Part shown: positions 10,141 to 42,966 of the stretch, piece by piece
How positions within the stretch are numbered: position 1 is the first letter of the stretch
Layout of the letters: every line of letters starts with the position of its first letter
NCBI RefSeq assembly: GCF_001424665.1
Contig: NZ_LMQS01000001.1
Location: forward strand, 807,225-871,224
From: Methylophilus sp. Leaf416
Lineage (GTDB): Bacteria; Pseudomonadota; Gammaproteobacteria; Burkholderiales; Methylophilaceae
DNA length: 64,000 nucleotides
Direction: 5' to 3'
The notes under the pieces: model-generated
The model's database searches: none
The model's input: the letters and a program-made list of their open reading frames with translations, nothing else
Told to the model about the DNA's origin: nothing
Translations under genes and position numbers: made by a program

Positions 10141-10150
10141 GATGATCCTT

Positions 10151-22740: not shown

Positions 22741-22816
22741 AAAGAAAAACGGCTTACATTCCTGCAAGCCGCTTTTTAGTTTTGATAGGATAAGCTAATT
22801 AAACCTATGACAAACG
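22741..22816 (-). repeat. Decayed copy of the tRNA-Lys 3' part plus terminator (left scar of the island)
   Basis: Begins with AAAGAAAAACGGCT, continues as a hairpin nearly identical to the terminator of the intact tRNA-Lys (42847-42879), then a degenerate copy of the tRNA 3' half ending in GACAAACG, which matches the anticodon-stem/variable/T-arm region. The hairpin half is well conserved; the tRNA half has many substitutions. The hairpin also serves as a terminator for the adjacent minus-strand membrane protein gene. Confidence 0.7.
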
Positions 22817-22852
22817 CATCAAACGTTTAGTGTTCTCCGTGTAAAACACAAC

Positions 22853-24013
22853 TCAATGACCTTGGCCACTCTTAAGAATATCGGTGTTAAAACCAAACAC
22901 CTTACCCGCCAAAATAAACACCACCCATACCAGCACACCAAAGGGCAAATAACCTGCAAAACCCAGTAGTGGCATTTCAGCATGAATATGAATTACATTG
23001 ACATAGGGGATATCGTAAAGCCAGTAATTCGGGTTGGTGACAGGTAATGTTGGATGCGCACTGCCGTAGTTCCAAACCTCCCAAAAAAATCCATTAAACA
23101 AGGAGCTGAGTGCCATCAGAAGCACCGGGCTCCAATTTCCTTTAGCCATGTCCGTAAATGGGGTCCAGATACCGCACATCATCAATATGCCAGCAATACC
23201 TATCAAAGGCGCGATCCACATTGCCCAGAATAATGGGTAAGGCCAGAACGGCACGGCAGCAAACAATAAAAAACTCAGATACAACATCGGCTTTGCTGGC
23301 AGTGCAAGCGCGGGGCCCTGGGCATAGCGCCCGGCAATTTTAGGAAAAGCATTCAACAAGGTATACCACTCAAAAACGGCAGGCCAAACGGTGCTGTAGG
23401 CAAAAATAAATATCCACACGATCGTGGCATGGCTTAACCCGGGGATCTCGGTATTTGGGTAATACCAGTTACCTAAGGCAAAGTAATCGAAATATTCAAA
23501 GAAATACCAGCCACCAATCGATACAACCGCACTAATCAGAAATGTTTTGGGGCGACTAGCGAACAGAGAGTAACCGCCAGAATAACGGAATGTCAGGCCA
23601 TCAAGTACAAAGATAAAGCCCCACCACATCGGCGTAAACGCGTAATACACCAAATCACCAAATGGTGTCGTGCGCGTCCACATCAACCACCAGAAAAACA
23701 GTGTCACAACCGCCCCCACCCAAAACCACCAGGGCAAGGCACGCAGTGCAGGCTGCGGGGATGGGGCGACTGGCTTAAAACCAAACCATTGCGGAAAAAT
23801 CATAAAAACAGCAAATGTCGCTTCAAGCAGGGCAACCCCAATAAAAACAATCAGATTAAACCCCGGAGGTTCTTCAACAAACTGTGGTGGAAAAACACCA
23901 AAACCGGGTGGTAGATGCGTAGACGGATAAGCAAACCAGGATGCCGTTAGCGGAATTAATAACATCGCTAAAACGGTCATCACCAGCACAGAACGTGTTG
24001 AAGTTCCAAACAT
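22853..24013 (-). CDS. Polytopic membrane protein of unknown function
   Basis: 386 residues from the ATG at 24013, which has a strong AGGGGAGG ribosome site; an in-frame TTG lies two codons earlier. About nine or ten hydrophobic segments, unusually rich in Trp, Phe and Tyr (WWFWVGAVVTLFFWWLMW, FFWEVWNYGSAHPTL). No heme-binding or ion-pump motif that I recognise. It lies downstream of the molybdopterin oxidoreductase on the same strand, but a strong terminator separates them, so a membrane-anchor role is only a guess. Confidence 0.75.
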   Translation of the reverse strand: MFGTSTRSVLVMTVLAMLLIPLTASWFAYPSTHLPPGFGVFPPQFVEEPPGFNLIVFIGVALLEATFAVFMIFPQWFGFKPVAPSPQPALRALPWWFWVGAVVTLFFWWLMWTRTTPFGDLVYYAFTPMWWGFIFVLDGLTFRYSGGYSLFASRPKTFLISAVVSIGGWYFFEYFDYFALGNWYYPNTEIPGLSHATIVWIFIFAYSTVWPAVFEWYTLLNAFPKIAGRYAQGPALALPAKPMLYLSFLLFAAVPFWPYPLFWAMWIAPLIGIAGILMMCGIWTPFTDMAKGNWSPVLLMALSSLFNGFFWEVWNYGSAHPTLPVTNPNYWLYDIPYVNVIHIHAEMPLLGFAGYLPFGVLVWVVFILAGKVFGFNTDILKSGQGH

Positions 24014-24111
24014 AAACAATCCTCCCCTTGATTTACAAACGATTTATTACTCAACGATGAGCTTTTATTAATATTGGAATAATTAATTTGCAGCAATCAT
24101 TAATATACCCT

Positions 24112-24197
24112 GAAAAATAAAAGATACCCAAGGTGTTCACCTTGGGTATCTTTATAAATGTAACCCCTCTGTGAGTCAAACACAGCACCTGATAGCT
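24112..24197 (-). repeat. tRNA-3'-end-like remnant plus 16-bp terminator hairpin
   Basis: On the minus strand a T-arm-like sequence (CTGTG TTTGACT CACAG) and acceptor-like AGGGGTTACA precede a perfect 16-bp hairpin (24120-24153) followed by TTTTATTTTT. The unit resembles the one at 34108-34197. The hairpin lies just past the molybdopterin oxidoreductase stop and should terminate it. Confidence 0.65.
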
Positions 24198-24219
24198 TGA
24201 ACCCTCTGCCTCTGTTTAT

Positions 24220-26346
24220 TCAAACCAGCTCGACTTCAACCAGGTTATCGCTAAACGTATTTGAATGACCCATGTCGCCATACTCAGCGGAACTGATACA
24301 GTTCACAGTACCATTGTTGAGTTGGCGCCAATAGCCTAATGTTGCTACGACGATTCCAGGATTTACATCTGTAGTGACGCGTGCCAGACCCTCAAAAGCA
24401 CCTCTGTCATTAAATACCTTTACCACCATTCCATCCTGAACGTCTCTTGCTAATGCATCGACCGGGTTGATCATCAGGTATTGCTCTCCTTGCACGCGGA
24501 TTTTGGATTCCATATTCGCGTATGAGGAATTGATGAAGCCATGGCTTTTAGGAGAAATGATGTTCAAAGGGAACCTGGCTGCCAGCACAGCATTGGTATC
24601 AGCTGATTCTCGACTTGCAATATATGCAGGTAATGGATCCAGATCTTCCCCGGGTTGAAAACCCTCGTACATCTGCCTGAAAGGCCCGGCAACGAAATTC
24701 TTCGCGCCTTCGACCATGAACATGCATTTACCAGTTGGGGTAGGGAAATTGCCCTGACGATGGGGTGCACGGTCGTCTTTGGTACCCACATTCAATCTGG
24801 CAAACCCATGCTCACGCATATAGTTGAGATCAATCCCCTTGCAAGCGGGTGAACTCCAGTCGACATAATTCTGCAGGCACTCGCCATCAGTCCATTTGAA
24901 ATTGTCTTCTTCGAATCCCAACCGTTTGGCTAAGCGGCGGAATATCTCATTATTTGGTAATGCCTCTCCGGGGGGCTCGATACATTTGGTGTTATACGTC
25001 AGATACAAATGGCCCCAGGATAAAATCATGTCTTCCTGCTCCGCCCCCATGGCTGCCGGCAAGATGATATCTGCATAAGAAGCCGTATCGGAAATGAAGT
25101 GATCGGCCACGATGGTGAACAGGTCTTCCCGCTTCAAGCCTTCGATTACCTTGTCGGTTTCAGGAGACTGTGTGACAGGATTGGTATTCCACACCATGAT
25201 GGATTTAATGGGCGTTTCCAGAGGCGTTTCGCCAAGCAGGGCTCTGCCTAATTGCAAGATATTCACGACAGGCGTACCTTCGGGAATGAGATCCGGCCTG
25301 CAAATCACATCAAATTTGTAGGGGTGCTCCCAGACCGGGAATTGTAGCGCCCCTCCTCCCACATGACGCCAGGCACCGATGAGTGCAGGCAGACAGGTGA
25401 CTGCCCGTATCGCCTGGCTTCCACCATAATTCCGTTCCAAAGCCACGCCTATGCGGATGGCTGCCGGGGGAGTTGAAGCATATTCACGCGCGAACAACCG
25501 AATCTCGTCTGCTGGTATACCTGTTATTTCGGCAGCCCATTCCGGAGTACAGGTTTTCGCCCTTTCCGCCAGCTCTGCATACCCGACCGTATACCTTTCG
25601 ACATAGTCATGATCGACCAGATTTTCTTCAATGATTACGTTCATCATCGCCATCGCCAAAGCGCCATCGGTGCCCGGCTTGGGTGCAATATGCCAATCCG
25701 CTTCTTTCGCCGTTTTGGAAGCGAAAGAATCCACCACCACGATCTTCGCGCCTCTTTTTTGCGCCTCTTTGATGATGTGCCAGTGATGTAGATTGGTGGA
25801 GACAGAGTTACATGCCCAGATCACAATGAAATTTGCATGTATGAAACTTTCGGGGTCTACCCCGGCGGTAGGCCCAACAGTCAGTAACCAGGCGGTACAG
25901 GAGCCTTCACCACAAAAGGTCCTTTCGCATACGGTAGCACCCAATCGATTAAAAAAGGCATCCCCGCCGTTGAGTCCATGTACCAGTCCCTGATTGCCCA
26001 GATAGCTGACTGGCAGTATAGAGCGGGGACCATCCTCTTGAATAAGCGTTTTCCATCGGTCAACGATAGTATCCAGCGCTTCATCCCAGGTGATTTGCTG
26101 AAATTGTTTGCTTCCTTTTGGCCCTACCCGCTTCATCGGGTATAGAAGACGGTTTGGGTGATAATGCCGCTTTTCGTAATCCTTCAATTTTACGCACAAC
26201 CCGCCACGCGTCATCGGATGATTAGGATTACCTGAAACCGACACCAGCTCCCCGTTCTTGACATGGAATTGCATGGAACAGGTATCGGGACAATCATGAG
26301 GACACCCACCATGAAAGGTTTCAATTACATCTGCAACATCATTCAT
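24220..26346 (-). CDS. Molybdopterin-dependent oxidoreductase with N-terminal 4Fe-4S cluster
   Basis: 708 residues from the ATG at 26346, which follows AAGGAG. The N-terminal cluster motif is CPHDCPDTC plus a later Cys (Cys15, 19, 23, 51), typical of the DMSO reductase/formate dehydrogenase superfamily. Then come the large MGD-binding domains and a C-terminal molybdopterin dinucleotide domain (PLNIISPKSHGFINSSYAN). CERTFCGEGSCTA lies where the Mo-ligand loop is expected, but the ligand is not certain. There is no TAT signal, so it is probably cytosolic. It appears to belong to an uncharacterised clade of the superfamily; no small Fe-S or cytochrome subunit is adjacent, so the electron partner and substrate are unknown. 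Confidence 0.9.
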   Translation of the reverse strand: MNDVADVIETFHGGCPHDCPDTCSMQFHVKNGELVSVSGNPNHPMTRGGLCVKLKDYEKRHYHPNRLLYPMKRVGPKGSKQFQQITWDEALDTIVDRWKTLIQEDGPRSILPVSYLGNQGLVHGLNGGDAFFNRLGATVCERTFCGEGSCTAWLLTVGPTAGVDPESFIHANFIVIWACNSVSTNLHHWHIIKEAQKRGAKIVVVDSFASKTAKEADWHIAPKPGTDGALAMAMMNVIIEENLVDHDYVERYTVGYAELAERAKTCTPEWAAEITGIPADEIRLFAREYASTPPAAIRIGVALERNYGGSQAIRAVTCLPALIGAWRHVGGGALQFPVWEHPYKFDVICRPDLIPEGTPVVNILQLGRALLGETPLETPIKSIMVWNTNPVTQSPETDKVIEGLKREDLFTIVADHFISDTASYADIILPAAMGAEQEDMILSWGHLYLTYNTKCIEPPGEALPNNEIFRRLAKRLGFEEDNFKWTDGECLQNYVDWSSPACKGIDLNYMREHGFARLNVGTKDDRAPHRQGNFPTPTGKCMFMVEGAKNFVAGPFRQMYEGFQPGEDLDPLPAYIASRESADTNAVLAARFPLNIISPKSHGFINSSYANMESKIRVQGEQYLMINPVDALARDVQDGMVVKVFNDRGAFEGLARVTTDVNPGIVVATLGYWRQLNNGTVNCISSAEYGDMGHSNTFSDNLVEVELV

Positions 26347-26452
26347 CTTCCACTCCTTGAAAAGCAATCAATTGATAACAGCTAAAACAAGCAGACTAAA
26401 ACAATACGCCAGGCAATCTATTAAACATACTAACTTGTACGGGCTTAAAAAC

Positions 26453-26480
26453 AAAGACTCAAGGCATTAAGCTTGAATCC
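26453..26480. repeat. Decayed GACTCAAGG-type hairpin
   Basis: Imperfect copy of the hairpin family seen at 29694, 34112 and 41188 (GACTCAAGGC ... CTTGAATCC). It sits in the 208-base space upstream of the molybdopterin gene, with no tRNA-like part that I can make out. Confidence 0.4.
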
Positions 26481-26554
26481 TTAAATTAGTATTGCTTTTC
26501 TGTAAAATGCGAGCATGCGCTCTCCTGAACTAGAGGTATGCAAAATTGATCTTC

Positions 26555-26719
26555 ATGAATAATCCAAGCCAACATAATGGCCAACGATTGTCACCGAGAT
26601 TACCGTCGTATATTCCAATTCCTGATTTTCTGGCTATGTTTAAAGACGTGAGATTATGGGTAAGGTTTGAGGCTGCGGGCCTGAAGCTGAGTGATGTATT
26701 GGATAGTTGTGATCTTTAA
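26555..26719 (+). CDS. Small ORF encoded by the dispersed repeat (copy A)
   Basis: 54 residues beginning MNNPSQHNGQRLSP and containing PDFLAMFKDVRLWVRFEAAG. The first 35 codons coincide with a repeat that recurs at 27224-27325 and 41296-41399; the copy at 41.3 kb reads PSQHNGQR and DARLWAGFRAARK in one frame. The repeat may be a residual gene end or a mobile short element rather than a working gene. No ribosome site stands out. Confidence 0.35.
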   Translation: MNNPSQHNGQRLSPRLPSYIPIPDFLAMFKDVRLWVRFEAAGLKLSDVLDSCDL

Positions 26720-26740
26720 ATATAAGTCTCCTAATGTTAT

Positions 26741-27175
26741 GTGAATATGAATTTATTTAAGCCCTTATTTGTTACAGTATTTATCTTTCTATCAGCGATT
26801 GCGCACGCCGGCATTGACATCAAACCTATTCAACATCCAATTGATGCATGGTATGAAAACAAAATGGCTGAAGAGATAGTTTCATCAACTGCTGACATGC
26901 GTAACATTACTAATGAAGCCAGGGTTAAGTGGATTCAGAAATGAATATCGTCTACAAGCGGCTCATGAAAAGATTGAATTCGACCCAGCAAGTGGCGCTT
27001 AGGAAAGCAACAACAATGGCTGAAGTACAGAGATACCGAAGGTAAAGCTATTAGTAAAATTATCTCATCACAGCAAGGCACTATTCACCAATTAACCGGC
27101 ACAAACTTAGGCATGCAGCTAGTACGTTCCCGAGCATTGAACCTGCTCGCATATGAACAAGAGTTTGAGAAATAA
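26741..27175 (+). pseudogene. Frameshifted LprI/DUF1311-like exported protein
   Basis: The first 67 codons (26741-26944) encode a signal peptide (LFVTVFIFLSAIAHAG) and a polar region. After that stop, shifting frame gives RNEYRLQAAHEKIEFDPASG, and a further shift gives LGKQQQWLKYRDTEGKAISKI, ending at a TAA at 27173-27175. The Q-x-W-L-x-YRD pattern matches lysozyme-inhibitor LprI/DUF1311 proteins. At least two frame changes are needed, so the gene is broken. It lies between two copies of the dispersed repeat. Confidence 0.65.
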
Positions 27176-27223
27176 TATAATCAAGCTATTCATCTGCAGC
27201 CTGGATAAGTCCTGACTTCCACA

Positions 27224-27325
27224 CCAAGCCAACATAACGGCCAGCGTTTTGCCCGGGGAAGCTGGATCAGTCAGCCCCTGATTGTTTGGCTATGACTCAA
27301 AACGTGTGACTATGAGCAGGCTTTA
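27224..27325 (+). repeat. Dispersed repeat, copy B
   Basis: Starts CCAAGCCAACATAACGGCC and ends near GACTATGAGCAGGCTT; related to copy A (from 26564) and copy C (41296-41399). It ends 33 bases before the stop of the convergent aldo/keto reductase gene. Confidence 0.7.
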
Positions 27326-27358: not shown

Positions 27359-28408
27359 TTAAGCTGGTTTTATTAGCACCTGCAAATCATTGCCGCCGGA
27401 CAGGCTTCTATAAGAAGAGTTTATTTGTTCATGCGGTACACCCAACGCTACTGCACTCGCTGCATCCAATCGCGCAACCATTTCAGGGGGCAAACTGATA
27501 TCCAAAGCACCTAAGGTGGCATCTAATTGTTCTACTGTGCGAGGTCCTAATATTGGTATGATTGAAGTTGTCGATCTAGCGGCCTTGTCTAGCAACCAGG
27601 CAATAGCAATGTGGGTTGGACTAGCCCCCAACTCATCTGCAATGGACAAAATCGTATTGAGCAATTCAGTTTCTTTTTCTGACTTTTCAGTATGGACCAG
27701 CATACCTAGCTTAGTTAAGCGAGTGTCCACATGTTGATCCCGATACTTGCCTGTCAGAAAGCCTCCACCAAGCGGTGACCAGGTGGTAACTCCCAACCCT
27801 AAAGACTCTGACATTGGGATCAGCTCTCGATCTGGCGAACGTTCTGCCAAGCTGTATTCAATCTGAATGCCGATGATGGGAGACCACCCTTTCAAATCTG
27901 CCATCAAGTCCGCCCGTGCAATCCGCCATGCAGGAAAGTTGGAAAGGCCCGCATAAATTACTTTCCCGCTGCGCACCAAATCATCTAATCCACGCAGGAT
28001 TTCTTCCATAGGCGTGACACCATCACTGATATGCACCCAGTAAAGGTCAATGCGGTCCGTTTTCAGCCGCTTTAAGCTTTCCTCAACAGCGCGCACCATG
28101 TTCTTACGGCTGTTACCGGTTCTGGAAATCCCGGCATCGGGTGCAGTTGCATTGCTATATTTGGTTGCAACGACAAATTGATCCCTATCCGAGGCAATGA
28201 AATCACCTAATAATGACTCTGACTCACCGCGTTGATATGCGTTTGCAGTATCAAAGAAATTCCCACCCGCATTTACATACTGATCAAAAATCTTTTTAGC
28301 CTCTTCAGGCGCAGCGCCATGCCCCCACCCTGTACCGAAGTTGCCCGTACCCAGTGCTAACTCAGACACCCTCAATCCAGAATTCCGGCCAAATACTTTA
28401 AATTTCAT
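27359..28408 (-). CDS. Aldo/keto reductase
   Basis: 349 residues, a TIM-barrel NADPH-dependent reductase. It has GNFFDTANAYQRGESE (catalytic Asp and Tyr), VVATKYSN (Lys), DRIDLYWVHISDGVTPMEE with the catalytic-site His, and the C-terminal cofactor region IIPILGPRTVEQLD. Close to the YghZ/Tas-type group. Third gene of an operon behind HbpS-like and TetR genes (17 bases after the TetR stop), so it should share their repressor control. The substrate is probably a reactive carbonyl, by family analogy only. Confidence 0.93.
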   Translation of the reverse strand: MKFKVFGRNSGLRVSELALGTGNFGTGWGHGAAPEEAKKIFDQYVNAGGNFFDTANAYQRGESESLLGDFIASDRDQFVVATKYSNATAPDAGISRTGNSRKNMVRAVEESLKRLKTDRIDLYWVHISDGVTPMEEILRGLDDLVRSGKVIYAGLSNFPAWRIARADLMADLKGWSPIIGIQIEYSLAERSPDRELIPMSESLGLGVTTWSPLGGGFLTGKYRDQHVDTRLTKLGMLVHTEKSEKETELLNTILSIADELGASPTHIAIAWLLDKAARSTTSIIPILGPRTVEQLDATLGALDISLPPEMVARLDAASAVALGVPHEQINSSYRSLSGGNDLQVLIKPA

Positions 28409-28425
28409 ATGCGTCTTTCTTGATA

Positions 28426-28998
28426 CTACTCATTCAAAGTCATTTTTTTCGAGGTATCCAGAATCTCTTCAGATAATTCACTCGTGCCTGCGGCTCTAGC
28501 CAATATCAATGCACCCACCCATTGAGAAAACATGGCGATAGAGTTCTCGCGCTTTTCTTGCTCAGATTCGCCAGGAACAATCTTTGATAGAAGCTTAACG
28601 ACTGACTCAATACTACCTTCGAAAACTTTTTGAACTGTTATATCATGGCGTGACACTTCAGGCGCCAATGTTGAAAACACACATGTTGTAGCTAACTCGT
28701 CTCTATTTTTGGTTGAGAGATAAGAGCTGCCGATGCGAGCAAGAGGATTCTCAATTTCAGGATTGGCTATATGCTCTTCCCATCTTTTTAGAGTTTTATC
28801 GCAAGCTCGTTGGCAAGCTTGAGCGATCAAATCCTCTTTTGACTGGAAGGTTTTATAAAACCCGCCGACAGTCAATCCAGCACTTTTCATTAAATCAGCT
28901 ACACCAATACCATCAAACCCATGCTCCTTAAATAGGGTTGACGCAGTGTCTAGCACCAGTTCACGATTCTCTACAGATTTAGCCCTACTTACTCTCAT
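28426..28998 (-). CDS. TetR/AcrR family transcriptional repressor
   Basis: 190 residues with a TetR helix-turn-helix at about residues 13-58 (LVLDTASTLFKEHGFDGIGV, KSAGLTVGGFYKTFQSKEDL), similar to the YcdC/AcrR-type group that controls oxidoreductases. Second gene of the HbpS-like/TetR/AKR operon. Two 16-bp palindromes flank the operon promoter (29585 and 29637), which suggests autorepression. Confidence 0.92.
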   Translation of the reverse strand: MRVSRAKSVENRELVLDTASTLFKEHGFDGIGVADLMKSAGLTVGGFYKTFQSKEDLIAQACQRACDKTLKRWEEHIANPEIENPLARIGSSYLSTKNRDELATTCVFSTLAPEVSRHDITVQKVFEGSIESVVKLLSKIVPGESEQEKRENSIAMFSQWVGALILARAAGTSELSEEILDTSKKMTLNE

Positions 28999-29046
28999 CA
29001 GTGTTCTTTCACATGAAATCCAACTATTTTGCTGTGACTTTCGATA

Positions 29047-29550
29047 TTACTTATTTAAAAGTGATTGAATCGCATCGATACCCGCTTGAGCACAAGCAGC
29101 ATCTTGATCAGGCATGCCACCACTGACACCTATAGCGCCTAAAAATTCTTTACCAACGCTAAAGGGAATACCCCCACCTAAAGTAACGAAACCAGGCAAG
29201 TTAGCTAGACCTGGCGCTGGCCCACCTTTTTTATCCTTACCAAAAGAAAATTCCTCAAGCGCGCTTGTTGGTAGCTGCATGCCAGCAGAATTTAACGCTT
29301 TGAGCTTTGATAATTCAGCGGAAGCAATATAAGCGCCATTCATACGTTGAAAATAGATTGGATTAGCGCCTGCATCAACGATAGTAATGCTCATTTTCCA
29401 ACCTTCTTTTGTAGCTTTGGCTTGGCAACCTGCAGCTATCTTTTGCGCTGTTTCAAGATTAAGTACAGGCTGGGTTTCAAATGCATGCGCTTGGAAACTG
29501 ACACTCGCTGCGGCAAATGCCAGATTGATGAATAAATGTTTGGGATTCAT
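29047..29550 (-). CDS. Exported HbpS/GlcG family protein
   Basis: 167 residues from the second Met (29550). A signal peptide (LFINLAFAAASVSFQAHA) is followed by the HbpS/GlcG fold: LETAQKIAAGCQAKATKEG, ITIVDAGANPIYFQRMNGA, GGGIPFSVGKEFLGAIGVSGG. Relatives include heme-degrading or heme-binding HbpS and corrinoid-associated proteins, often paired with TetR-controlled oxidoreductases. First gene of the operon; the promoter and operators lie just upstream. Confidence 0.9.
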   Translation of the reverse strand: MNPKHLFINLAFAAASVSFQAHAFETQPVLNLETAQKIAAGCQAKATKEGWKMSITIVDAGANPIYFQRMNGAYIASAELSKLKALNSAGMQLPTSALEEFSFGKDKKGGPAPGLANLPGFVTLGGGIPFSVGKEFLGAIGVSGGMPDQDAACAQAGIDAIQSLLNK

Positions 29551-29584
29551 GTCCATGTCCTTTAGTAAATAGAAACAGCCATAT

Positions 29585-29693: not shown

Positions 29694-29740
29694 AAGACCC
29701 TAGGCGTAAACCTAGAGTCTCTCATCTATAACTGCCTATC
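29694..29740 (-). repeat. tRNA-end-like remnant with GACTCTAGG hairpin
   Basis: Minus strand: a short degenerate stretch followed by TAGATGAGAGACTC and a hairpin GACTCTAGG/CCTAGGGTC. The TAGATGAGAGACTC junction is shared with the unit at 41186-41280. It separates the TetR operon from the KaiC module. Confidence 0.5.
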
Positions 29741-34270: not shown

Positions 34271-35062
34271 ATGAAGATTGTCACTTACAACATTAATGGG
34301 ATCAATAATCGGATTGAGCGATTATTGGAGTGGTTAGCCGAAACAGAGCCTGATGCAGTGTGTCTCCAGGAGCTTAAGTCAGAAACGAATAAGTTTCCAG
34401 TCAAGGCTATTGAGAAAGCGGGTTATGGTGCTTTATGGCAAGGTCAAAAAGCCTGGAACGGTGTCGCTATACTTAGTAGAGATAGTGAGCCACTTTTAAT
34501 ACGCCGCAGCTTACCCGGAGACCCCGCTGACAAACAAGCAAGGTATATTGAAGCGGCTGTAAATGGATTGATTCTGGCCAGTTTATATTTGCCTAACGGC
34601 AATCCCCAACCGGGCCCAAAATTTGACTATAAATTAGCATGGTTTCAGCGGTTGAACGTTCATGCTAAAGAGCTTTTAGATACCGGTTTGCCTGTGGTTC
34701 TCGCTGGCGACTATAACGTTGTTCCAACCGATCTAGATATATACAAAACCACTTCATGGGACGACGATGCCCTTTTACAGCCTGAAAGTCGTACAGCATT
34801 CGCAGATCTGGTTAAGCAAGGCTGGACAGATGCATTGAGGTCATGTCATCCCAATGAAAGCATTTACACATATTGGGACTACAAACGAAATCGCTGGTCT
34901 CGAAATGCCGGATTGAGAATCGACCACTTGTTACTGAGCCCGGTATTGGCCGCAGGTCTCCGAAATGCAAATGTGGATAAGGATTATAGAGGCATAGAAG
35001 GTGCCAGTGACCACGCGCCAACATGGGTGGAGTTTGATTGGGAGCCTGTGATTACAAACTAA
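34271..35062 (+). CDS. xthA: Exodeoxyribonuclease III (XthA family)
   Basis: 263 residues of the EEP endonuclease/exonuclease fold: MKIVTYNINGI, DAVCLQELKSE (metal-binding Glu), LAGDYNVVPTDLDI (Asp, Asn), RIDHLLLSP and GASDHAPTWVEF (catalytic Asp-His). It cleaves at abasic sites and degrades duplex DNA from 3' ends in base-excision repair. Full family length. It lies in the accessory region, directly after a tRNA-like scar, so it may be a second, transferred xth copy; the AT-leaning codon use fits. Convergent with cheY. Confidence 0.95.
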   Translation: MKIVTYNINGINNRIERLLEWLAETEPDAVCLQELKSETNKFPVKAIEKAGYGALWQGQKAWNGVAILSRDSEPLLIRRSLPGDPADKQARYIEAAVNGLILASLYLPNGNPQPGPKFDYKLAWFQRLNVHAKELLDTGLPVVLAGDYNVVPTDLDIYKTTSWDDDALLQPESRTAFADLVKQGWTDALRSCHPNESIYTYWDYKRNRWSRNAGLRIDHLLLSPVLAAGLRNANVDKDYRGIEGASDHAPTWVEFDWEPVITN

Positions 35063-35108
35063 TTTTTTTCATGAACTCCATTTGAGTTGAGATTCATGCA
35101 AATCAAGC

Positions 35109-35501
35109 TTAGCCTTTATCAATTTTCTCAAAAATTTTAGTTAATTTGTCTTCCAAAGTTGCTGAGGTGAATGGCTTCACTACATAACCACTGGCTTTGG
35201 CTTGGGCGGCGGCAATAATATTTTCTTTTTTTGCTTCCGCCGTCACCATAAGAACAGGCAAATTACACAATTTAGGGTCGGCACGAATGTTTTGAAGCAT
35301 AGTAAGACCATCCATATTAGGCATATTCCAATCAGACACTACAAACTCGAAATTACCGTCGCGAAGCTTTTCTAGCGCTTCAACACCATCTTCAGCTTCC
35401 TCTACATTGTTATAGCCGAGTTCCTTCAGTAAATTACGTACAATTCTTCGCATTGTAGAGAAATCGTCTACCACCAGAAATTTAGTATTTGGGTTACCCA
35501 C
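35109..35501 (-). CDS. cheY: CheY-type chemotaxis response regulator
   Basis: 130 residues, a single receiver domain. Residues Asp12, Asp13, Asp57 (phosphorylation), Thr87, Tyr106 and Lys109 fall at the same numbers as in E. coli CheY, and [14 protein letters not shown] and [12 protein letters not shown] are near-identical to CheY. Phosphorylated CheY binds FliM and switches motor direction. No chemotaxis or flagellar gene is adjacent, so it is an orphan copy here. Confidence 0.94.
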
Positions 35502-36116: not shown

Positions 36117-38078
36117 ATGAAGTTCAGATCTCAAAATCGAGTTATTTATGCCTACGTCGCAATAATTGTTATACAGGGATGCACCAGTGTTTTTGCCGCA
36201 TCCACCGATGTCACTGACATTCCTTTTGAACACCTTATACAGACAGACATTATCACCGCATCGAGGATCGGCCAGCAGATTAGTAACGCGCCCTCTGCAG
36301 TCAGCACAGTCACTGCGGAAGATATTCGCAAATTTGGTTATCGAACTTTGGCTGACATTATCGGCAGCATGCGCGGGTTATATACCACCAATGACCGCAC
36401 CTACACCTATATGGGGGGGCGCGGATTTGGCCGGACCGGCGATTATGCTGGCAGGGTGATGTTGTTAATCGATGGCTACCAGGCCAATGACAATCTCTAC
36501 AACGCTGCCTACCTGGGCAATGACGGGCTACTGGATGCCGAGCTGATAGACAGGGTCGAATATGTTTCTGGCCCCGGTGGCGTCACTTATGGAAACGGCG
36601 CATTTTACGGCATCATTAATGTCATCACTAAAAAAGGCAGTGATATCAATGGAGTGCAAACTGCTCTGGATGCCGGCAGTTTTGGCAGCCAGAAGGAACG
36701 GGTGACCTATGGCAAGACGTTGGCCAATGGCTTAAATATATTACTGTCAGCCTCACGGTTCGCCAGTGATGGCCAGACACATTATTATCCTGAATTTGAT
36801 TCGCCTGCCACCAATAATGGCCGAGCAGAAAACCTGGATGATGAGCGCAACCGACGTTTTTTTGGCAAGCTAATTTTTGATAAATGGACCTTAATAGGTG
36901 CATTTGTTAGCCGCCGTAAAAGTGATCCGACTGCACAGTTTGGTGCGGACTTTAATGTCAGCCCTAATTGGATCCAGGATAGCAACGGCTTTATCGATCT
37001 CAAATACGACGCTGATTTCAACGCGCAGCATAAGGCTTCTTACCGAACCTATTATGGCCAGTATCAGTACCGTAGCCGTGCAGTGTTCACCGGGGAATTT
37101 TATTCGGAAAAAAATATGGGTCGCTGGTGGGGGGCAGAAGCAAAATTCACCAATACCAGCATCGCCAATCACAAGCTGCTCTATGGTGTCGAATATCGAA
37201 ATGATTACCAGCAGGACTTTTACTTGCCAGATGCTTCGCTGGAGCACAGCCAGTACCTGATAAGTGGTTATACGCAAGATGAATATCAGTGGCTGCGTAA
37301 CGTGCGCTTGAATATGGGGGCTCGTTATGACTACGGTGGAAAAAATGCCACTTTTGTCAGCCCGCGTGTGGCCGCTATTTATTCGGCAACCGAAGAAACG
37401 GATGTGAAGGTTTCGTATGCTTCGGCATTCAGGAGACCGAATGTCTATGAGAAATACTATTCCGACCCCAGTTTTCTGCTACCGAACAGGAACCTGAGGA
37501 AAGAAACAGTGGATGCGACGGAATTGGTGATTGAAAGTCGTCCGGATAGCCAGACCAAAATACAGAATTCATTTTTCTATTACACAACGCAAAACCTTAT
37601 ATCCGCCAGCGAAGTAGGGGGACCAGGCATCATTCAGTATGGCAACTGGGATAAGGCCATCACCAGGGGGGCGGATATCGAGCTGGACCATTTCTGGAAA
37701 TCTGGTATGCATCTGAAAACCAGTTATGCCTGGCAACTGGTTGAAGATGGCAATGGACAGTGGATGGTCAATTCACCCAGACATTTGTTCAAGTCCAACT
37801 TTTCCATGCCATTACTCAGCAACCAGCTCTACCTCGGCGTGGAATTGCAATCGTTTGGCAAGCGTTTAAGCGAGCAGCGAAACGACATAGCTGGCTACAG
37901 CTTAGTCAATGTCAGTCTGTCTTCCACCCACCTGATTCCGCATGTGAATGTCAGTGCGACGGTGCGCAACCTGTTTGACCGCGATTATGCGATTGCCGCG
38001 TCGGGTTTCAATGCGCAGGAAACCATTCTTCAAGATGGCAGGAATATTTGGCTACAAATGGTGTATCAATGGCCATGA
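36117..38078 (+). CDS. TonB-dependent outer membrane receptor
   Basis: 653 residues: signal peptide (cleavage near residue 27), a plug domain (about 45-170: ITASRIGQQISNAPSAVSTV, ADIIGSMRGLYTTNDRTYTY, RVEYVSGPGGVTYGNGAFYG) and a long beta-barrel ending QMVYQWP with a C-terminal aromatic. It is of the size and type used for siderophores or other small ligands, but the ligand is not readable. It overlaps the YfiR-like gene by four bases (ATGA), placing it at the head of a receptor-YfiR-cyclase operon; the ligand or periplasmic state may thus feed c-di-GMP signalling. Confidence 0.94.
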   Translation: MKFRSQNRVIYAYVAIIVIQGCTSVFAASTDVTDIPFEHLIQTDIITASRIGQQISNAPSAVSTVTAEDIRKFGYRTLADIIGSMRGLYTTNDRTYTYMGGRGFGRTGDYAGRVMLLIDGYQANDNLYNAAYLGNDGLLDAELIDRVEYVSGPGGVTYGNGAFYGIINVITKKGSDINGVQTALDAGSFGSQKERVTYGKTLANGLNILLSASRFASDGQTHYYPEFDSPATNNGRAENLDDERNRRFFGKLIFDKWTLIGAFVSRRKSDPTAQFGADFNVSPNWIQDSNGFIDLKYDADFNAQHKASYRTYYGQYQYRSRAVFTGEFYSEKNMGRWWGAEAKFTNTSIANHKLLYGVEYRNDYQQDFYLPDASLEHSQYLISGYTQDEYQWLRNVRLNMGARYDYGGKNATFVSPRVAAIYSATEETDVKVSYASAFRRPNVYEKYYSDPSFLLPNRNLRKETVDATELVIESRPDSQTKIQNSFFYYTTQNLISASEVGGPGIIQYGNWDKAITRGADIELDHFWKSGMHLKTSYAWQLVEDGNGQWMVNSPRHLFKSNFSMPLLSNQLYLGVELQSFGKRLSEQRNDIAGYSLVNVSLSSTHLIPHVNVSATVRNLFDRDYAIAASGFNAQETILQDGRNIWLQMVYQWP

Positions 38079-38584
38079 AGAAACCTCTGCTGTTGATGAT
38101 GGGCCTGCTGTGCCATCATGGCCATGCTCTTGCAGCGGCAATCCCCGAATTGGATATGCGCTCTGCCTACCTATATAACTTTGCTCAATTTACAGACTGG
38201 CCAGTCAATGATCAGCCGACCTTCAATATCTGTACCTTGGAAAAAGTTAGCGATAGTATCAGCCCGGAAGTGCTGGCTAATAAAACGGTCCATGGAAAGA
38301 AAATCCGGCTTGCACGTTTTTCGGAATCGACGGATGCCACCGAGTGCCAGTTGGTTTACCTAAATTCCTCAGACGCCGCCTATGTCGCAAAAATTGCCAA
38401 GATGCTGAGCACCGAGCATGTGCTGACCGTAGGGGAAGAATTTAACGGCAGCGGTCCAGGGATAATCAACTTGTCGATCAAGAACAACCGTCTAGTGTTT
38501 GATCTTGACCTCGCACGTGCGCGCAAAGCCAATATTTCTCTGAGTTCAAAATTGATTCCGCTTGCCCAGAAAGTGCATGAATAA
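38075..38584 (+). CDS. YfiR-like periplasmic regulator (DUF4154)
   Basis: 169 residues from the ATG that overlaps the receptor stop. A signal peptide (MKKPLLLMMGLLCHHGHALA) precedes a DUF4154 domain: RSAYLYNFAQFTDWP, FNICTLEKV, EFNGSGPGIINLSIKNNRLVFD and LIPLAQKV. YfiR proteins sit in the periplasm and hold a membrane diguanylate cyclase (YfiN/TpbB) inactive until stress releases them. The next gene starts inside its stop codon (TAATG) and encodes such a cyclase. Confidence 0.9.
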   Translation: MKKPLLLMMGLLCHHGHALAAAIPELDMRSAYLYNFAQFTDWPVNDQPTFNICTLEKVSDSISPEVLANKTVHGKKIRLARFSESTDATECQLVYLNSSDAAYVAKIAKMLSTEHVLTVGEEFNGSGPGIINLSIKNNRLVFDLDLARARKANISLSSKLIPLAQKVHE

Positions 38585-40704
38585 TGTTTTCTGCCAGATT
38601 GAATAATCTGTCTATCCAGATTAAATTATTGTTGGCCCAGGGAGTAGTGACGATTTCTGCCCTATTTGTGTTGTTGGCCATCGTTCTCGGCTACGGCTAC
38701 ACCAGTTTCAGGAATGACTTGTACAATGACTTGGACACCCAGGCCACCATCATTGAACATAGCAGCACTGCCGCGCTGCTCTTTGATGACAAAAATGCAG
38801 CAAATGAAATATTGTCCACGTTGAATCTAATGGGCAGCATCAACCGCGCTTATCTCTTTCACGAGACTGGTCATTTGCTGGCCACCTATGACAAAAATCA
38901 ACAAACCGTGCGCGCCTCCGAAATCCGCTTGCCCGCGTTACGCAAATTGAAATCCAGTTTCAAAACGCATATCCTGACCCGGGATATCGTGTTTGATCAC
39001 CGTGTAATCGGCACTATTTTTATAGAAGCCAACCTGGATAAATTGAATACCCGGCTCGGCCTGCTGGTCCTGGCGGTCATGATTGCTGCCTTCATAGGAT
39101 TGATCATCTCACTGCTAGTCTCAATTAGGATCAACAAATTTTTGACGCAACCCATTCTGGCCTTAACCAACCTGGTAGATAAAGTCTCCAGCAGTCATGA
39201 CTACACCGTACGTAGCCACCTGTTAACTAAAGATGAGATAGGCAGCCTGTCAGTGGGGATCAACGCCATGCTGCGCAGCATTGAGCAAAGGGATGAGCTG
39301 CTGGAAGCTGAGCTGGCCAAACAGAAGCAGGCGGAGAAAGCCCTTGACCGGCTGGCCTATTTTGACACCGTTACCCAGCTGCCTAACCGACACTATTTCA
39401 ACCAGCAATTGCAAAAGAAAATTATAGAGGCTGAGCGCCTCAACAAAGTCTGCTGCCTGATGTTCATTGATCTTGATGACTTCAAGGTCATCAATGATAC
39501 CTATGGGCACCGGGTTGGCGACGAGTTGCTGGCGGATGTAGGGCATCGCCTTAAGGAAAACCTCAGGCCTGGCGATGAAGTATTCCGTATAGGCGGCGAT
39601 GAGTTCGCTATCCTGATTTCTGATAATAACCAGTTTTCCCATGCGCGGGAATTAGCCGCTAAAGTCATCCACAACTGTGCTGAAAAATTCATCATCAATA
39701 ACAATGACCTATATATCGGCGTCAGCATAGGTATTAGCGGTTCAACCCAGCCTGGCATACAGGCTACAGATTTGCTGCGCTCAGCCGACAGCGCAATGTA
39801 TAGGGCAAAAAATGAGGGCAAGAATAATTTCAAACTCTTTTCCAAGGAAATTGATGATGAATCTCATTTCAGGAACTATCTGGAAACCGCGCTTAGAAGT
39901 GCACTGGGACGCAATGAATTTGAAGTGTATTACCAACCCATCATCAACCTGAAGTCCGAGCAGATCGTCGGTTTTGAGGCTTTGCTAAGGTGGCATGAAC
40001 CCATTTATGGAGATATCAGCCCCGGCATTTTCATTCCATGCGCGGAGCGTATCGGTGTAATTATCCCGATAGGTGAATGGGTGTTACGTCAAGCCTGCCT
40101 GCAACAGAAAAAGTTGCGAGATGAGTTTGGTATCGATTTCATGATGAACGTGAATCTTTCAGGGAGACAGCTGCGAGAGTTTGATGTGGTGCATAAAATC
40201 CTGGATGTTGTGTCGGAAACCGGCATCAACCCGACCGCCTTGAATATTGAGCTGACTGAAAGCGTGCTGATGGATAACTCCCAGTCTACGATCAATAAAT
40301 TCCATGTCTTGCGCGCTGCAGGGGTAAGCATTTCCATTGATGATTTTGGTACCGGCTATTCATCATTAAGCTACCTGAAGCGGTTCCCAATCAATACAAT
40401 CAAGATTGATCGCAGTTTTATCATGGATATCTCGCACGATTCAGAGGACCAGGCCATTACGCTGGCAATCATTGCCCTGGCAAACACGCTCAAACTCACC
40501 GTTGTGGCTGAAGGTGTTGAGACGACTGAACAAAAGAGGATTTTAAGGCAAAATAATTGCGAGAAGGCTCAAGGCTATTTATTTAGTAAACCATTACCAT
40601 CGCCTGCACTAGAAAGTGTGGTTAAAGCTAATTTCTCACTAAATACTCTTGAAGAGCATAATCAAAACTTGATTAATTATGTGGACTCATCAAATTTGGA
40701 TTAA
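38584..40704 (+). CDS. Membrane GGDEF-EAL protein of the YfiN type
   Basis: 706 residues. The first transmembrane helix is at about 20-40, followed by a periplasmic CHASE8-like region (DLDTQATIIEHSSTAALLFD), a second helix (about 155-180) and HAMP (about 185-235). GGDEF carries RIGGDEF (near residue 340) and EAL carries EALLRW (near 465) and DDFGTGYSSLSYLKRF. Both active sites look intact, whereas P. aeruginosa YfiN has no EAL, so this copy may be bifunctional. Translationally coupled to the YfiR-like gene, which should repress it from the periplasm. Confidence 0.93.
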   Translation: MFSARLNNLSIQIKLLLAQGVVTISALFVLLAIVLGYGYTSFRNDLYNDLDTQATIIEHSSTAALLFDDKNAANEILSTLNLMGSINRAYLFHETGHLLATYDKNQQTVRASEIRLPALRKLKSSFKTHILTRDIVFDHRVIGTIFIEANLDKLNTRLGLLVLAVMIAAFIGLIISLLVSIRINKFLTQPILALTNLVDKVSSSHDYTVRSHLLTKDEIGSLSVGINAMLRSIEQRDELLEAELAKQKQAEKALDRLAYFDTVTQLPNRHYFNQQLQKKIIEAERLNKVCCLMFIDLDDFKVINDTYGHRVGDELLADVGHRLKENLRPGDEVFRIGGDEFAILISDNNQFSHARELAAKVIHNCAEKFIINNNDLYIGVSIGISGSTQPGIQATDLLRSADSAMYRAKNEGKNNFKLFSKEIDDESHFRNYLETALRSALGRNEFEVYYQPIINLKSEQIVGFEALLRWHEPIYGDISPGIFIPCAERIGVIIPIGEWVLRQACLQQKKLRDEFGIDFMMNVNLSGRQLREFDVVHKILDVVSETGINPTALNIELTESVLMDNSQSTINKFHVLRAAGVSISIDDFGTGYSSLSYLKRFPINTIKIDRSFIMDISHDSEDQAITLAIIALANTLKLTVVAEGVETTEQKRILRQNNCEKAQGYLFSKPLPSPALESVVKANFSLNTLEEHNQNLINYVDSSNLD

Positions 40705-40706
40705 AG

Positions 40707-41078: not shown

Positions 41079-41185
41079 CGTTGAGCTAAAGGGCTGGCTT
41101 TGGCCAGTTCCGCTTGAATGAGGGTTAGGTTATCTTCCTTTTTAAGCTCTGCTATTCAACTATTAATTGCACTATACCAAACAAA

Positions 41186-41280
41186 AAAGACCCGAGGCGT
41201 TAACCCTGAGTCTCTCATCTAGTACGGCCCACCTAAAGATCGAACTTTGTACTCACGCTAAGCCACTTCCGCTTGGGCAA
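41186..41280 (-). repeat. tRNA-like remnant with GACTCAGGG hairpin
   Basis: Minus strand: a T-arm-like AAAG TTCGATC TTTAG and acceptor-like GTGGGCCGTA lead into TAGATGAGAGACTC and a hairpin GACTCAGGG/CCTCGGGTC (41188-41212) with a T run. The junction matches the unit at 29694-29740. Overall too degenerate for a functional tRNA. Confidence 0.5.
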
Positions 41281-41295
41281 ACTCGAACTCCCACG

Positions 41296-41399
41296 CCAAG
41301 CCAACATAATGGTCAACGATCTCAGCGGGGATTACCGTCGTATCAGTCAGTCCCTGATTGCTTGCCTGTGACTCAAGACGCACGACTATGGGCAGGCTT
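41296..41399 (+). repeat. Dispersed repeat, copy C
   Basis: Starts CCAAGCCAACATAATGG and ends GACTATGGGCAGGCTT; closely similar to copies A and B. Read in one frame it encodes PSQHNGQR followed by DARLWAGFRAARK, like the small ORF at 26555. It lies between two tRNA-like scars. Confidence 0.72.
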
Positions 41400-41455: not shown

Positions 41456-41527
41456 CTGAAACGCCGAAATTCTGAAAAACTGAACCTGTTGGAAAATAGT
41501 GAAAAACTGAATTCTGAAACGCTGAAA
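41456..41527. repeat. Short direct repeats next to the tRNA-Lys half copy
   Basis: CTGAAACGCyGAAA occurs at 41456 and 41514, and GAAAAACTGAA at 41474 and 41501. The cluster directly adjoins the duplicated tRNA-Lys segment. Its layout is reminiscent of recombinase arm sites, but could be simple sequence drift. Confidence 0.5.
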
Positions 41528-41602
41528 AGAAAAACGGCTCACATTTCTGCAAGCCATCTTTATATTTTGGTAGGTGTGCGGGAATCAAACTCACGACAAA
41601 GG
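41513..41602 (-). repeat. Partial tRNA-Lys duplicate plus terminator (att-like)
   Basis: Identical over 43 bases to 42835-42877 (tRNA-Lys terminator), then closely matching the tRNA 3' half through GGTAGGTGTGCGGG and CACGACAAA, with a few substitutions and short gaps. The 5' half of the tRNA is absent. It lies 1322 bases from the intact copy with the PEP-CTERM gene between, the layout expected of attL/attR at a tRNA 3' end. Confidence 0.85.
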
Positions 41603-41605
41603 TTG

Positions 41606-42805
41606 CTAATTAACCTTTCGACGTCTTTGCATAAAAACTACCACCCCTAAACCAGCTAGCAACATGCCCAAATTTTCAGGTTCTGGAACTGACAAAACTG
41701 GACTAAGAATATATACTTTTCCAGCTACGGGAGATGAAATTAATATTTGCCCCATATCATTTATATCTAAAGGTACAACAACACCAGCCATGCCAAAATC
41801 TGAAGGTTTATTAATTAGATCTGTAATTGAACTCAGTAATCGAAAACCATTTGTGATGTCCCAAATGAAACCTTGAACTTGGTTACCAGCAATCGTGCCT
41901 AGAACACTTCCTGAATTATTTATCGCTGTTGCTGATATTTGACTTCCATTGAATTCCTCAGGGATATTTATATTAATCAATCCTTGTACGGGGTCCCAGA
42001 AGAACGGTCGACTCTGATAATAAAATTCACTTGAATCTAAAGTAAAAGACCCTACAACTTGCCCTAAGTCATTAACTGCTGCCGCTGAGCTGCCAACAAG
42101 ATGGGGTAAATCAAATAAACGGGTTAAGCCATCTTGCTGAGTGCCAATCGCAGCAAAAGATCTAGCTTCGGTCAAACTTGATATTGAACCAACGACTACA
42201 CCATTGTTATTGATGGAACTAATATTTACTGAAGTATTTTCTGCAAGGTTATTTGTATTTAATAACTTATGTCCACTAACAGTATCCCAAAAATAGTATT
42301 GATTAGTATCGTTATGACCAACAACCGTACCATTATTGTTAATCGCAATAGCTTTCGAGGAACCATCAGTAGCATTTATAAATTCAATCTCCTTGATACC
42401 GTTTGTTTGATTCCAAATGAATGCTCTATTCCCAGATTGACCAACTACAACCCCGCCATCATTGATGGCAGTTGCTGTACCGCTCACACCAAACATTGAG
42501 TATTCTGTTTTCACAAATCCAAGCTTTTGAAAATTGCCATTGCTATCCCATTTAAGCGGAATGAGTCCCAAATGTGGCCACGACTCTGCATCATCATAAA
42601 AATCAATTCCAAGACTCTCTCCAACAACTTCTCCAGAATTATTAATGGCATATGCATAGCTATAATTCAATCCGTTGACAGACGAGTAATCATTAAGCTG
42701 CACAAGGCTGTAGAGATCAACAGAATATGCGTTAGTCAAATGATGAAAAAAAAGAAACGATGAAAAAAATATACCGCGTGTAATTGTTTTTATTCTTTTC
42801 GACAC
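41606..42805 (-). CDS. PEP-CTERM exported protein with HAF repeats
   Basis: 399 residues from a GTG at 42805 with an AAAAGG ribosome site; an earlier in-frame start at 42874 would lie inside the tRNA-Lys terminator repeat and is rejected. Signal region: ITRGIFFSSFLFFHHLTNAYS. The body has about seven HAF-type repeats (AINNSGEVVGES, AINDGGVVVGQS, AINNNGTVVGHN, SINNNGVVVGSI, AVNDLGQVVGSF, AINNSGSVLGTI). The C-terminus is VPEPENLGMLLAGLGVVVF followed by MQRRRKVN, the PEP-CTERM sorting signal removed by exosortase. Probably exported to the exopolysaccharide layer. Clearly more AT-rich than flanking core genes and sandwiched between tRNA-Lys repeats, so recently acquired. Confidence 0.88.
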   Translation of the reverse strand: MSKRIKTITRGIFFSSFLFFHHLTNAYSVDLYSLVQLNDYSSVNGLNYSYAYAINNSGEVVGESLGIDFYDDAESWPHLGLIPLKWDSNGNFQKLGFVKTEYSMFGVSGTATAINDGGVVVGQSGNRAFIWNQTNGIKEIEFINATDGSSKAIAINNNGTVVGHNDTNQYYFWDTVSGHKLLNTNNLAENTSVNISSINNNGVVVGSISSLTEARSFAAIGTQQDGLTRLFDLPHLVGSSAAAVNDLGQVVGSFTLDSSEFYYQSRPFFWDPVQGLININIPEEFNGSQISATAINNSGSVLGTIAGNQVQGFIWDITNGFRLLSSITDLINKPSDFGMAGVVVPLDINDMGQILISSPVAGKVYILSPVLSVPEPENLGMLLAGLGVVVFMQRRRKVN

Positions 42806-42846
42806 TTTATTAATACCTTTTAATTTAATTGAACTCTGAAACGCTG

Positions 42847-42879
42847 AAAAGAAAAACGGCTCACATTTCTGCAAGCCGT
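42847..42879 (-). terminator. Terminator of the tRNA-Lys gene
   Basis: Stem ACGGCT/AGCCGT with a 12-base loop, followed on the minus strand by TTTTTCTTTT. Begins 12 bases past the tRNA CCA end. The same hairpin is duplicated at 41.5 and 22.75 kb. Confidence 0.85.
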
Positions 42880-42890
42880 CTTTTGTGTTT

Positions 42891-42966
42891 TGGTAGGGTG
42901 TGCGGGGATCGAACCCACGACAAACGGATTAAAAGTCCGCTGCTCTACCAGCTGAGCTAACACCCC
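42891..42966 (-). tRNA. tRNA-Lys (anticodon TTT)
   Basis: 76 nt with encoded CCA. Acceptor GGGGTGT pairs with ACACCCT (one G-T at the end), D-arm AGCTCAGCTGGTAGAGC, anticodon loop CTTTTAA with anticodon TTT at 42931-42933, T-arm GTGGG TTCGATC CCCGC. Intact and presumably functional. Its 3' half is duplicated twice upstream in the window, marking it as an integration site. Confidence 0.97.

Follow-up and report, generated by a model that had tools for sequence, protein, structure and literature searches.

Our analysis of a 64,000-nucleotide stretch of the Methylophilus sp. Leaf416 genome (contig NZ_LMQS01000001.1, positions 807,225 to 871,224; the window) indicated that the DNA 3′ of its tRNA-Lys(UUU) gene is probably an accretion island, formed by integrase-mediated insertion at tRNA-Lys, by the sharing of units with a second tRNA gene, tRNA(CAU), and by the recruitment of single genes. 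A preliminary description of the window had proposed a composite island with accessory cargo that grew over several rounds of integration, and our data supported this view. The evidence lies in the anatomy and polarity of the array, a gradient of repeat decay in a related genome (G002), units shared between the two tRNAs, content that varies among relatives, and the different chromosomal addresses of one gene, C20. Genomes carry G codes (G000 is the window's own), contigs C codes and fetched sequence stretches L codes.

The tRNA-Lys(TTT) gene, on the minus strand, was the sole tRNA predicted in the window by ARAGORN and the sole Rfam match at the gathering threshold (69 bits), in agreement with the preliminary description. 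Two displaced copies of the block formed by its 3′ half and terminator were found in the same orientation, both without the tRNA 5′ half. Scar 1 matched the tRNA-Lys block at 90% identity over query bases 1-94 (E 3.8e-29), with 43 consecutive identical bases common to positions 41513 and 42835 (start positions), and the more decayed scar 2 matched at 78% identity (E 8.8e-12); profiles of the attachment (att) block recovered them at E 2.3e-18 and E 2.1e-13 (49.9 bits), respectively. In Markov-resampled versions of the 61 searched sequences, one for each, the att profiles gave zero matches at E ≤ 1. Both copies were thus far above chance, confirming the repeats reported earlier, the weaker copy from 22741 included. 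Decayed Lys scars also lie 3′ of the C20 gene in G002 and G007. The two scars first recognized are therefore real, but the window holds at least six displaced att copies, and these come from two tRNA genes.

The second block type consists of the 3′ half and terminator of tRNA(CAU), first seen as repeats at 24.15 and 34.14 kb; its source gene is intact elsewhere in the same genome (G000:C2:494076-494154). ARAGORN labels these genes tRNA-Met(CAT), and from the acceptor stem we take them to be tRNA-Ile2(CAU). The anticodon arms of tRNA(CAU) (GCGGACTCATAATCCGT) and tRNA-Lys (GCGGACTTTTAATCCGT) share an identical anticodon stem, with differences confined to the loop. Four clear and two weak CAU-type traces (the latter at 18925-18962, profile E 2.2e-3, and a terminator at 26448-26503, E 0.018), all on the tRNA-Lys strand, split the island into units of one gene or one operon. 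A plus-strand profile match at 24121-24153 (E 0.035) was discarded as the palindrome of one terminator. Many Lys terminators are followed, about 100-155 bp further 3′, by a non-coding repeat of about 220 bp, R, of which the window has three copies. The first 144 bases of R gave 52 matches in 14 of 22 Methylophilus genomes, 43 of them within 65 kb of tRNA-Lys or tRNA(CAU), zones that make up about 9% of a genome; four others were on a contig with neither tRNA and five lay farther off, three of these near tails outside the arrays. That R is an att arm is our guess. It had also been considered as a coding gene end, since a shared peptide seemed possible, and this was rejected on finding the frames broken in many copies.

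Scars of both types recur across the genus. The tRNA block matched in all 61 searched genomes among the matches listed, as expected of a tRNA gene. The 61 sequences profiled were fetched for their proximity to att sites, so that the counts give no genome-wide rate: at E ≤ 1e-5, 28 displaced Lys-like blocks (one from tRNA-Met and two in G027, of another genus) and 47 CAU traces were detected, and displaced blocks were present in 15 of the 21 other Methylophilus genomes. Among the matches listed, G002 carries five displaced copies beyond tRNA-Lys, one merely a terminator, with scar identity dropping with distance (97, 92, 92 and 86%), and two or more displaced copies also occur in G021, G007, G006 and G027. 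All 50 of the 50 displaced blocks compared lie on the strand of the intact tRNA of their locus. Because the att profiles begin at the loop by construction, scar starts were taken from BLAST instead; of 29 displaced Lys-like copies reaching the terminator (one of which, L146, derives from another tRNA), 21 start at tRNA positions 26-36 and eight later, none starting before position 26. Preserved scar starts thus lie in the anticodon arm. One copy within the tRNA-Lys island of G013 (L130 6064-6162) is a near full-length decayed tRNA(CAU) with its 5′ half included, as would be expected if the copies were decayed tandem tRNA genes and not attachment scars. We consider this origin very improbable and rejected it because of the scar start positions; the window copies, moreover, lie at distances of 0.3 to 19 kb from one another, and the cargo between them is unrelated.

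A candidate fourth Lys remnant at G000:C1:698464 proved to be the 3′ half of tRNA-Met(cat), and it is still counted in the 28 Lys blocks, the 75 sites tested below and the 29 BLAST copies. At that locus (G000:C1:687997-698547, L146) the 3′ half of this third tRNA is displaced by about 10.4 kb, marking another small island. The motif TTGGCGAG.., which precedes some scars, was considered as an integrase C-terminus; this was not borne out, and it resembles a distal att arm.

Comparison at the same tRNA-Lys in relatives, which the preliminary description had called for, found the whole segment in no other of the 22 genomes among the matches listed, and no plasmid matching the island was found. Gene maps at 20 other Methylophilus tRNA-Lys loci showed content varying by genome (L132 covers just 0.7 kb past the tRNA). 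The distance from rplU to the tRNA-Lys 5′ end is 39 kb in the window's genome; in the seven other genomes where rplU was reached it is 2.8 (G016), 7.1 (G011), 10.1 (G017), 13.2 (G014), 14.9 (G021), 15.7 (G004) and 17.1 kb (G003). Core genes had been described on both flanks: ffh on the right is indeed conserved, but the sequence to the left of 22.74 kb stays variable down to about 14.3 kb, leaving a zone without a conserved gene block at about 14.3-42.9 kb. The conserved block of relatives lies at 14240 and below, which makes 22.74 kb an old border within the island and not its edge.

No tyrosine integrase was found in the window, as had been noted before; the five PF00589 matches of G000 all lie elsewhere (among the matches listed). 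One of the genome's integrases, of 400 aa, sits inside the tRNA(CAU) array (G000:C2:474632-475834) and is 48% identical to that of the G006 tRNA-Lys island and 64.5% to that of the G017 tRNA(CAU) array. In a second family, the integrase beside tRNA-Lys in G010 is 44% identical to that beside tRNA(CAU) in G015, and broken integrase pieces adjoin tRNA-Lys in G027. These identities pair tRNA-Lys with tRNA(CAU) integrases and thus place two families each at both tRNAs, a relation that we read as association and not as activity. With related integrases in the genus, one of them in G000's own tRNA(CAU) array, immobility, which had been offered together with mobilization in trans, is not the sole option.

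We infer integrase action, mobilization in trans and recruitment as follows. Tyrosine integrases would cut in the anticodon loop and insert circular DNA 3′ of tRNA-Lys(UUU); the incoming att site would bring a tRNA 3′ half and terminator, rebuilding the tRNA, and the previous 3′ half with its terminator would be displaced to the far end as a scar. The same integrase families would act at tRNA(CAU), and, the anticodon stem being the same in both tRNAs, units would build up at both and be exchanged between them. Many units without an integrase may have moved in trans, or by RecA via the repeats. An att molecule could also insert just 3′ of a chromosomal gene, giving a gene followed by a tRNA half and terminator; the tagged gene would later be recombined into a tRNA island, its unit often being one gene or operon with its stop at the crossover. 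The window array would be a mostly decayed record of several such events, its integrase lost.

A plain accretion-plus-deletion history is a serious rival, to which we give nearly an even chance: integrase islands at both tRNAs would have lost their integrases and most of their cargo by deletion, leaving the cassettes as residue. Full-size elements do exist. In G010, about 21.6 kb separates tRNA-Lys, with an integrase beside it, from a scar; this element carries a relaxase-like gene (L127 6049-7161; MbeA model 205 bits, model cut-off 500) and may therefore be mobilizable. The units of the G000 tRNA(CAU) array measure about 8.5-18.3 kb. On this account a scar would offer genes a ready-made terminator, which is why they stop there, and the Dehalococcoides islands provide a precedent without, as far as their description goes, special capture (PMC3146451). 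What it explains less well are PEP-CTERM orthologues of G002 and G008 that share a junction but differ in tail, C20 copies accompanied in islands by a stub of a neighboring cyclase gene, and tails after ordinary genes, each detailed below. The G000 array itself (G000:C2:448-494 kb) has four units; a copper-type P-type ATPase gene occurs in one, an integrase and a DUF1156/methyltransferase-like gene in the second, flavohaemoprotein and Rrf2/NsrR-like genes in the third, and an attC-like array in the fourth, where small same-strand open reading frames (ORFs) run with attC-like repeats between many of them (G000:C2:448748-458564, L160/L161).

The case for recruitment centers on C20, whose 388-aa product had neither Pfam nor NCBIfam matches. 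In G003, G004, G006, G014 and G021 this gene has a diguanylate cyclase gene on one side and mraZ-rsmH on the other, its 3′ flanks being ordinary; the G003 and G021 copies are broken, and mraZ, rsmH and pyrC at the G004 site were assigned by family models. It lies instead in the tRNA-Lys island of G000, G002 and G007 and in the tRNA(CAU) island of G013, and all four of these genomes have an mraZ site without C20. The site lacks both cyclase and C20 in G000, G007, G013, G008 and G012 and retains the cyclase without C20 in G002, G009 and G020; no C20 was found elsewhere at E ≤ 1e-10 in G008, G009, G012 or G020. Decayed stubs of the cyclase 3′ end accompany the island C20 of G002 (tblastn E 9e-5, DNA E 7e-13) and G013 (tblastn E 0.21, DNA E 8e-6), and none was seen beside that of G000 or G007. 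These stubs, together with island copies in genomes whose mraZ site is without C20, favor movement from the mraZ site to the island, and the chromosome is the probable source of at least one island unit. In the C20 tree, G002 (Lys island) groups with G013 (CAU island; 98/97), in conflict with the ffh tree, which joins G002 with G007 (95/97). Such a conflict, and repeats of about 90-220 bp present in both islands, would fit shuffling of units by homologous recombination among terminators, tRNA halves and R repeats, integrases having made the first insertions alone. We regard this as possible but on the doubtful side, as it leaves unexplained both the scar starts in the anticodon arm and the first recruitment of a chromosomal gene.

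Other genes also have addresses outside the window's array. The molybdopterin oxidoreductase (Mo) gene, whose stop is 30 bp from its scar match (12 bp when extrapolated), has relatives in at least 13 other genomes at 70-83% DNA identity, and the island copy is the only one in G000 (both among the matches listed). Nine other Mo-gene loci that were read carried no Lys or CAU scar; in G021, where the gene lies outside any island, an R fragment (E 4.4e-11) follows its stop by 177 bp, a single case that could be a trace of tagging or a chance association. The PilZ gene, a single copy in each of 12 of the 22 genomes, is found close to tRNA(CAU) in six and close to tRNA-Lys in three, a distribution in line with exchange between the two islands; in the remaining three it is unplaced. 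Tails also occur outside the arrays. In G010 (L150), on a contig different from those of both tRNAs, the stop of a TSCPD-domain gene (presumably ribonucleotide-reductase-like, judging by its ending) is followed at 14 bp by a tail of the Lys type. In G007 (L264), more than 570 kb from either tRNA, a tail of the CAU type starts 42 bp behind the stop of a gene for a 1378-aa molybdopterin/flavodoxin reductase, and in G013 (L139) Lys tails stand behind an intact tRNA-Arg. We take such tails as secondary-site insertions, putatively the first step of recruitment, and their loci as candidate native sites.

Gene ends coincide with scars more often than intergenic positions do. Counting a same-strand ORF of at least 90 aa with its stop within −45 to +25 of the inferred crossover, a gene stops at the crossover in 28 of 75 traces, compared with 12.1 ± 3.2 when intergenic positions were drawn at random from the same loci (300 draws, at most 21) and 3.3 ± 1.7 for random positions overall. 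PEP-CTERM genes are among those that end at scars: G002 has three, the window, G008, G009 and G021 have one apiece, and G010 has a decayed case; those of G021 and G010 were missed by the motif test and counted by eye. Motif matches of this kind amount to at least 487 in the 22 genomes, or at least about 22 per genome. Five of these genes (three in G002, one each in G021 and G009) use the anticodon-loop TAA as their stop codon, always at the same model position. The orthologues of G002 and G008 (72%), both beside tRNA-Lys, share the junction TCATAA|TCCGTT with the stop codon inside the loop, and one has a Lys tail, the other a CAU tail; other fetched members of that family, about half identical, are without such a tail.

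Integrons hold one-gene units with a recombination site at the gene 3′ end. We tentatively envisage a tRNA-anchored analogue, in which integrases would tag resident genes at their 3′ end with a tRNA half and terminator and excise them as cassettes of one gene each, to be stored behind tRNA-Lys(UUU) or tRNA(CAU), with exchange between the two stores and a preference for genes of PEP-CTERM surface proteins; this proposal is less likely to hold than the accretion island as such. The one-gene units with a site at the gene 3′ end are the likeness to integrons; the differences are that the site is a tRNA half with a terminator, the anchor is a tRNA and intI is not beside the array. G000 does encode an integron integrase, IntI (G000:C1:182706-183689; TIGR02249, 431 bits), more than 600 kb from the window's tRNA, and its tRNA(CAU) island includes the attC-like array. 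That the window's units are true integron cassettes moved by this IntI is nonetheless highly unlikely: their scars are tRNA halves with terminators, R is unlike attC as judged by eye without an attC model, and attC at unit borders was not noticed, no attC model search having been made.

Several observations weigh against the proposed history of insertion and recruitment. Since a scar holds a terminator, selection could retain scars after genes without a special capture step. No C20 with a tail was found at the mraZ site, and the ffh tree needs three changes for the island-C20 genomes, with the mraZ group weakly supported (53/60), which makes island-to-mraZ movement or two recruitments possible as well. 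The window's six CAU traces include two weak ones; several copies (e.g., L139 10163 and L143 8994) begin at the 5′ side of the anticodon stem and not in the loop; and the CAU copy L130 6064 retains its decayed 5′ half. A terminator-pattern search, whose 33 sites include intact tRNA-Lys terminators, found no site in eight of the 22 genomes searched, and the stretches fetched around tRNA-Lys in G003, G004, G008 and G009 contained no Lys scar, those of G003, G008 and G009 carrying CAU or R traces. Neither circles nor excision nor reads across a junction have been observed.

From the tRNA outwards, the window's units run as follows: the PEP-CTERM/HAF gene, a Lys scar, and repeat R with a CAU scar; the TonB-YfiR-GGDEF/EAL operon, the response regulator and the exodeoxyribonuclease III family gene, closed by a CAU scar; the histidine kinase and KaiC-like genes, a CAU scar, and the HbpS-like, TetR and aldo/keto reductase genes; the remnant between R repeats, the Mo gene, a CAU scar, C20 and a Lys scar; and, beyond scar 2, further genes including alternative oxidase and PilZ (Pfam, NCBIfam). 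The coordinates are collected in Table 1. At E ≤ 1e-10 the PEP-CTERM/HAF gene had no counterpart in any of the other 21 Methylophilus genomes, and the KaiC-like/histidine kinase stretch was unmatched in the genus search, among the matches listed. No relaxase or conjugation genes were seen among the Pfam matches of 20 scanned window proteins, the KaiC-like protein giving a P-loop cross-match to TrwB_AAD_bind (23.9 bits). Adjoining the alternative oxidase gene, 20434-21531 encodes a catalase-like protein whose Pfam catalase match is short and weak (28 bits against a cut-off of 25) and for which NCBIfam gave nothing. Among the tRNA-Lys units of relatives, one in G007 (L124 3629-4634) holds a nucleotidyltransferase-domain gene and a small partner, the latter with zero Pfam matches, possibly a toxin-antitoxin pair.

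Table 1. Features of the tRNA-Lys island and its flanks in the window
Feature	Position	Strand	Basis and remarks
Conserved left block, rplU (3556-3864) through 14240	3556-14240	.	tblastn of relatives' proteins, gene maps; L21 family match
PilZ gene, then weak CAU-like terminator	18925-19327	-	Pfam, profile
Lys-type scar 2, most decayed	22741-22826	-	Similarity search, profile
Gene C20, 388 aa	22853-24019	-	ORF; near mraZ in five relatives
CAU-type scar	24112-24189	-	86% identity; profile E 1.9e-17
Molybdopterin oxidoreductase (Mo) gene	24220-26367	-	Pfam
Remnant unit flanked by R repeats 27176-27323 and 26448-26666	26448-27323	-	Profile, repeat search
Aldo/keto reductase - TetR - HbpS-like genes	27359-29556	-	Pfam
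CAU-type scar, decayed	29694-29733	-	Profile E 8.7e-4
KaiC-like ATPase and PAS-histidine kinase-receiver module	29936-33908	+	Pfam
CAU-type scar	34104-34185	-	86% identity; profile E 3.8e-19
Exodeoxyribonuclease III family gene (+) and response regulator gene (-)	34271-35501	.	Pfam, NCBIfam
TonB receptor - YfiR - CHASE8/HAMP/GGDEF/EAL operon	36117-40704	+	Pfam
CAU-type scar, decayed 3′ end and terminator, overlapping end of repeat R	41178-41256	-	Profile E 4.6e-9
Repeat R, non-coding, decayed CAU-type tail in 3′ end	41179-41399	-	Sequence comparison
Lys-type scar 1, tRNA 3′ half and terminator	41524-41602	-	BLAST, profile; repeat reaches 41505
PEP-CTERM/HAF-repeat protein gene, one-gene unit	41606-42790	-	Pfam, NCBIfam
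tRNA-Lys terminator, belongs to repeated att block	42847-42890	-	Sequence; profile match 42936-42847
Intact tRNA-Lys(UUU)	42891-42966	-	ARAGORN, Rfam; proposed attB, island 3′ of tRNA
ffh, conserved right flank	43105-44466	-	Pfam, relatives

The preliminary description compared the island with tycheposons. As these are described for Prochlorococcus in PMC10872708, the likeness holds for a cargo-rich, tRNA-anchored element with a tRNA at one border, but the fit is loose: the window has no tyrosine recombinase of its own, its units are small, and two tRNAs share them. Closer printed matches, so far as the accessible descriptions go, are additive flexible genomic islands at tRNAs and the Dehalococcoides ssrA islands. 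In the former, gene cassettes are targeted to a conserved tRNA and length is strain-dependent (PMC4119200 for Alteromonas; PMC7771536 for Ca. Actinomarinales, where five tRNAs within one island serve as targets); here, too, a tRNA is the target, the place is constant and the content variable among relatives, and units are closed by a partial tRNA repeat. By those descriptions, what differs here is that two distant tRNAs with the same anticodon stem share units, that the repeated block includes the terminator and repeat R, and that single genes take their stop from the scar, one gene having a traceable chromosomal home. In Dehalococcoides, many ssrA islands lie in tandem, marked by repeats of the RNA gene 3′ end; an integration module is present in 16 and absent from 15 (PMC3146451). 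Tandem units, RNA 3′-end repeats and optional integration genes are thus common to both, whereas theirs is a system of tmRNA and serine recombinases and ours one of tRNA-Lys and PF00589 integrases (serine recombinases were not searched for); recruitment of chromosomal genes is not in the accessible part of their description. Within the same family, Ca. Methylopumilus/OM43 has fGI-2, with recurring 20-nt tRNA-Lys repeats and 1-63 genes, and fGI-3, named a tycheposon, at tRNA-Met(cat) and with xerD (PMC10872708). The tRNA of fGI-3 is possibly the same as tRNA(CAU) here; fGI-2 differs in using tRNA-Lys(ctt) and not (ttt), and its printed 20-mer resembles the reverse complement of the tRNA 5′ end and not the 3′ half. 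The accessible text of that paper makes no mention of PEP-CTERM or Methylophilus. Already in print, as far as these sources show, are hence the addition of cassettes at tRNA genes together with tRNA repeats, islands with many repeats whether or not they carry integration genes, and tRNA-Lys(ctt)/tRNA-Met(cat) islands in this family. No literature linking tRNA, cassette, PEP-CTERM and integrase was found in a search whose coverage lay mostly outside subscription journals, and titles and the beginnings of abstracts gave no evident report of tRNA-Lys and tRNA(CAU) integrase islands of this kind.

The origin of single-gene mobile cassettes has long lacked an explanation, most of all in integrons. 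In Methylophilus, the supposed stages can be compared across relatives: a gene near mraZ, ordinary genes with a tRNA-half tail, and genes banked at two tRNAs. If the proposed history is true, it would account for the strong within-genus variability of these tRNA flanks, and it would offer a tractable system in harmless, methanol-using bacteria for watching gene recruitment.

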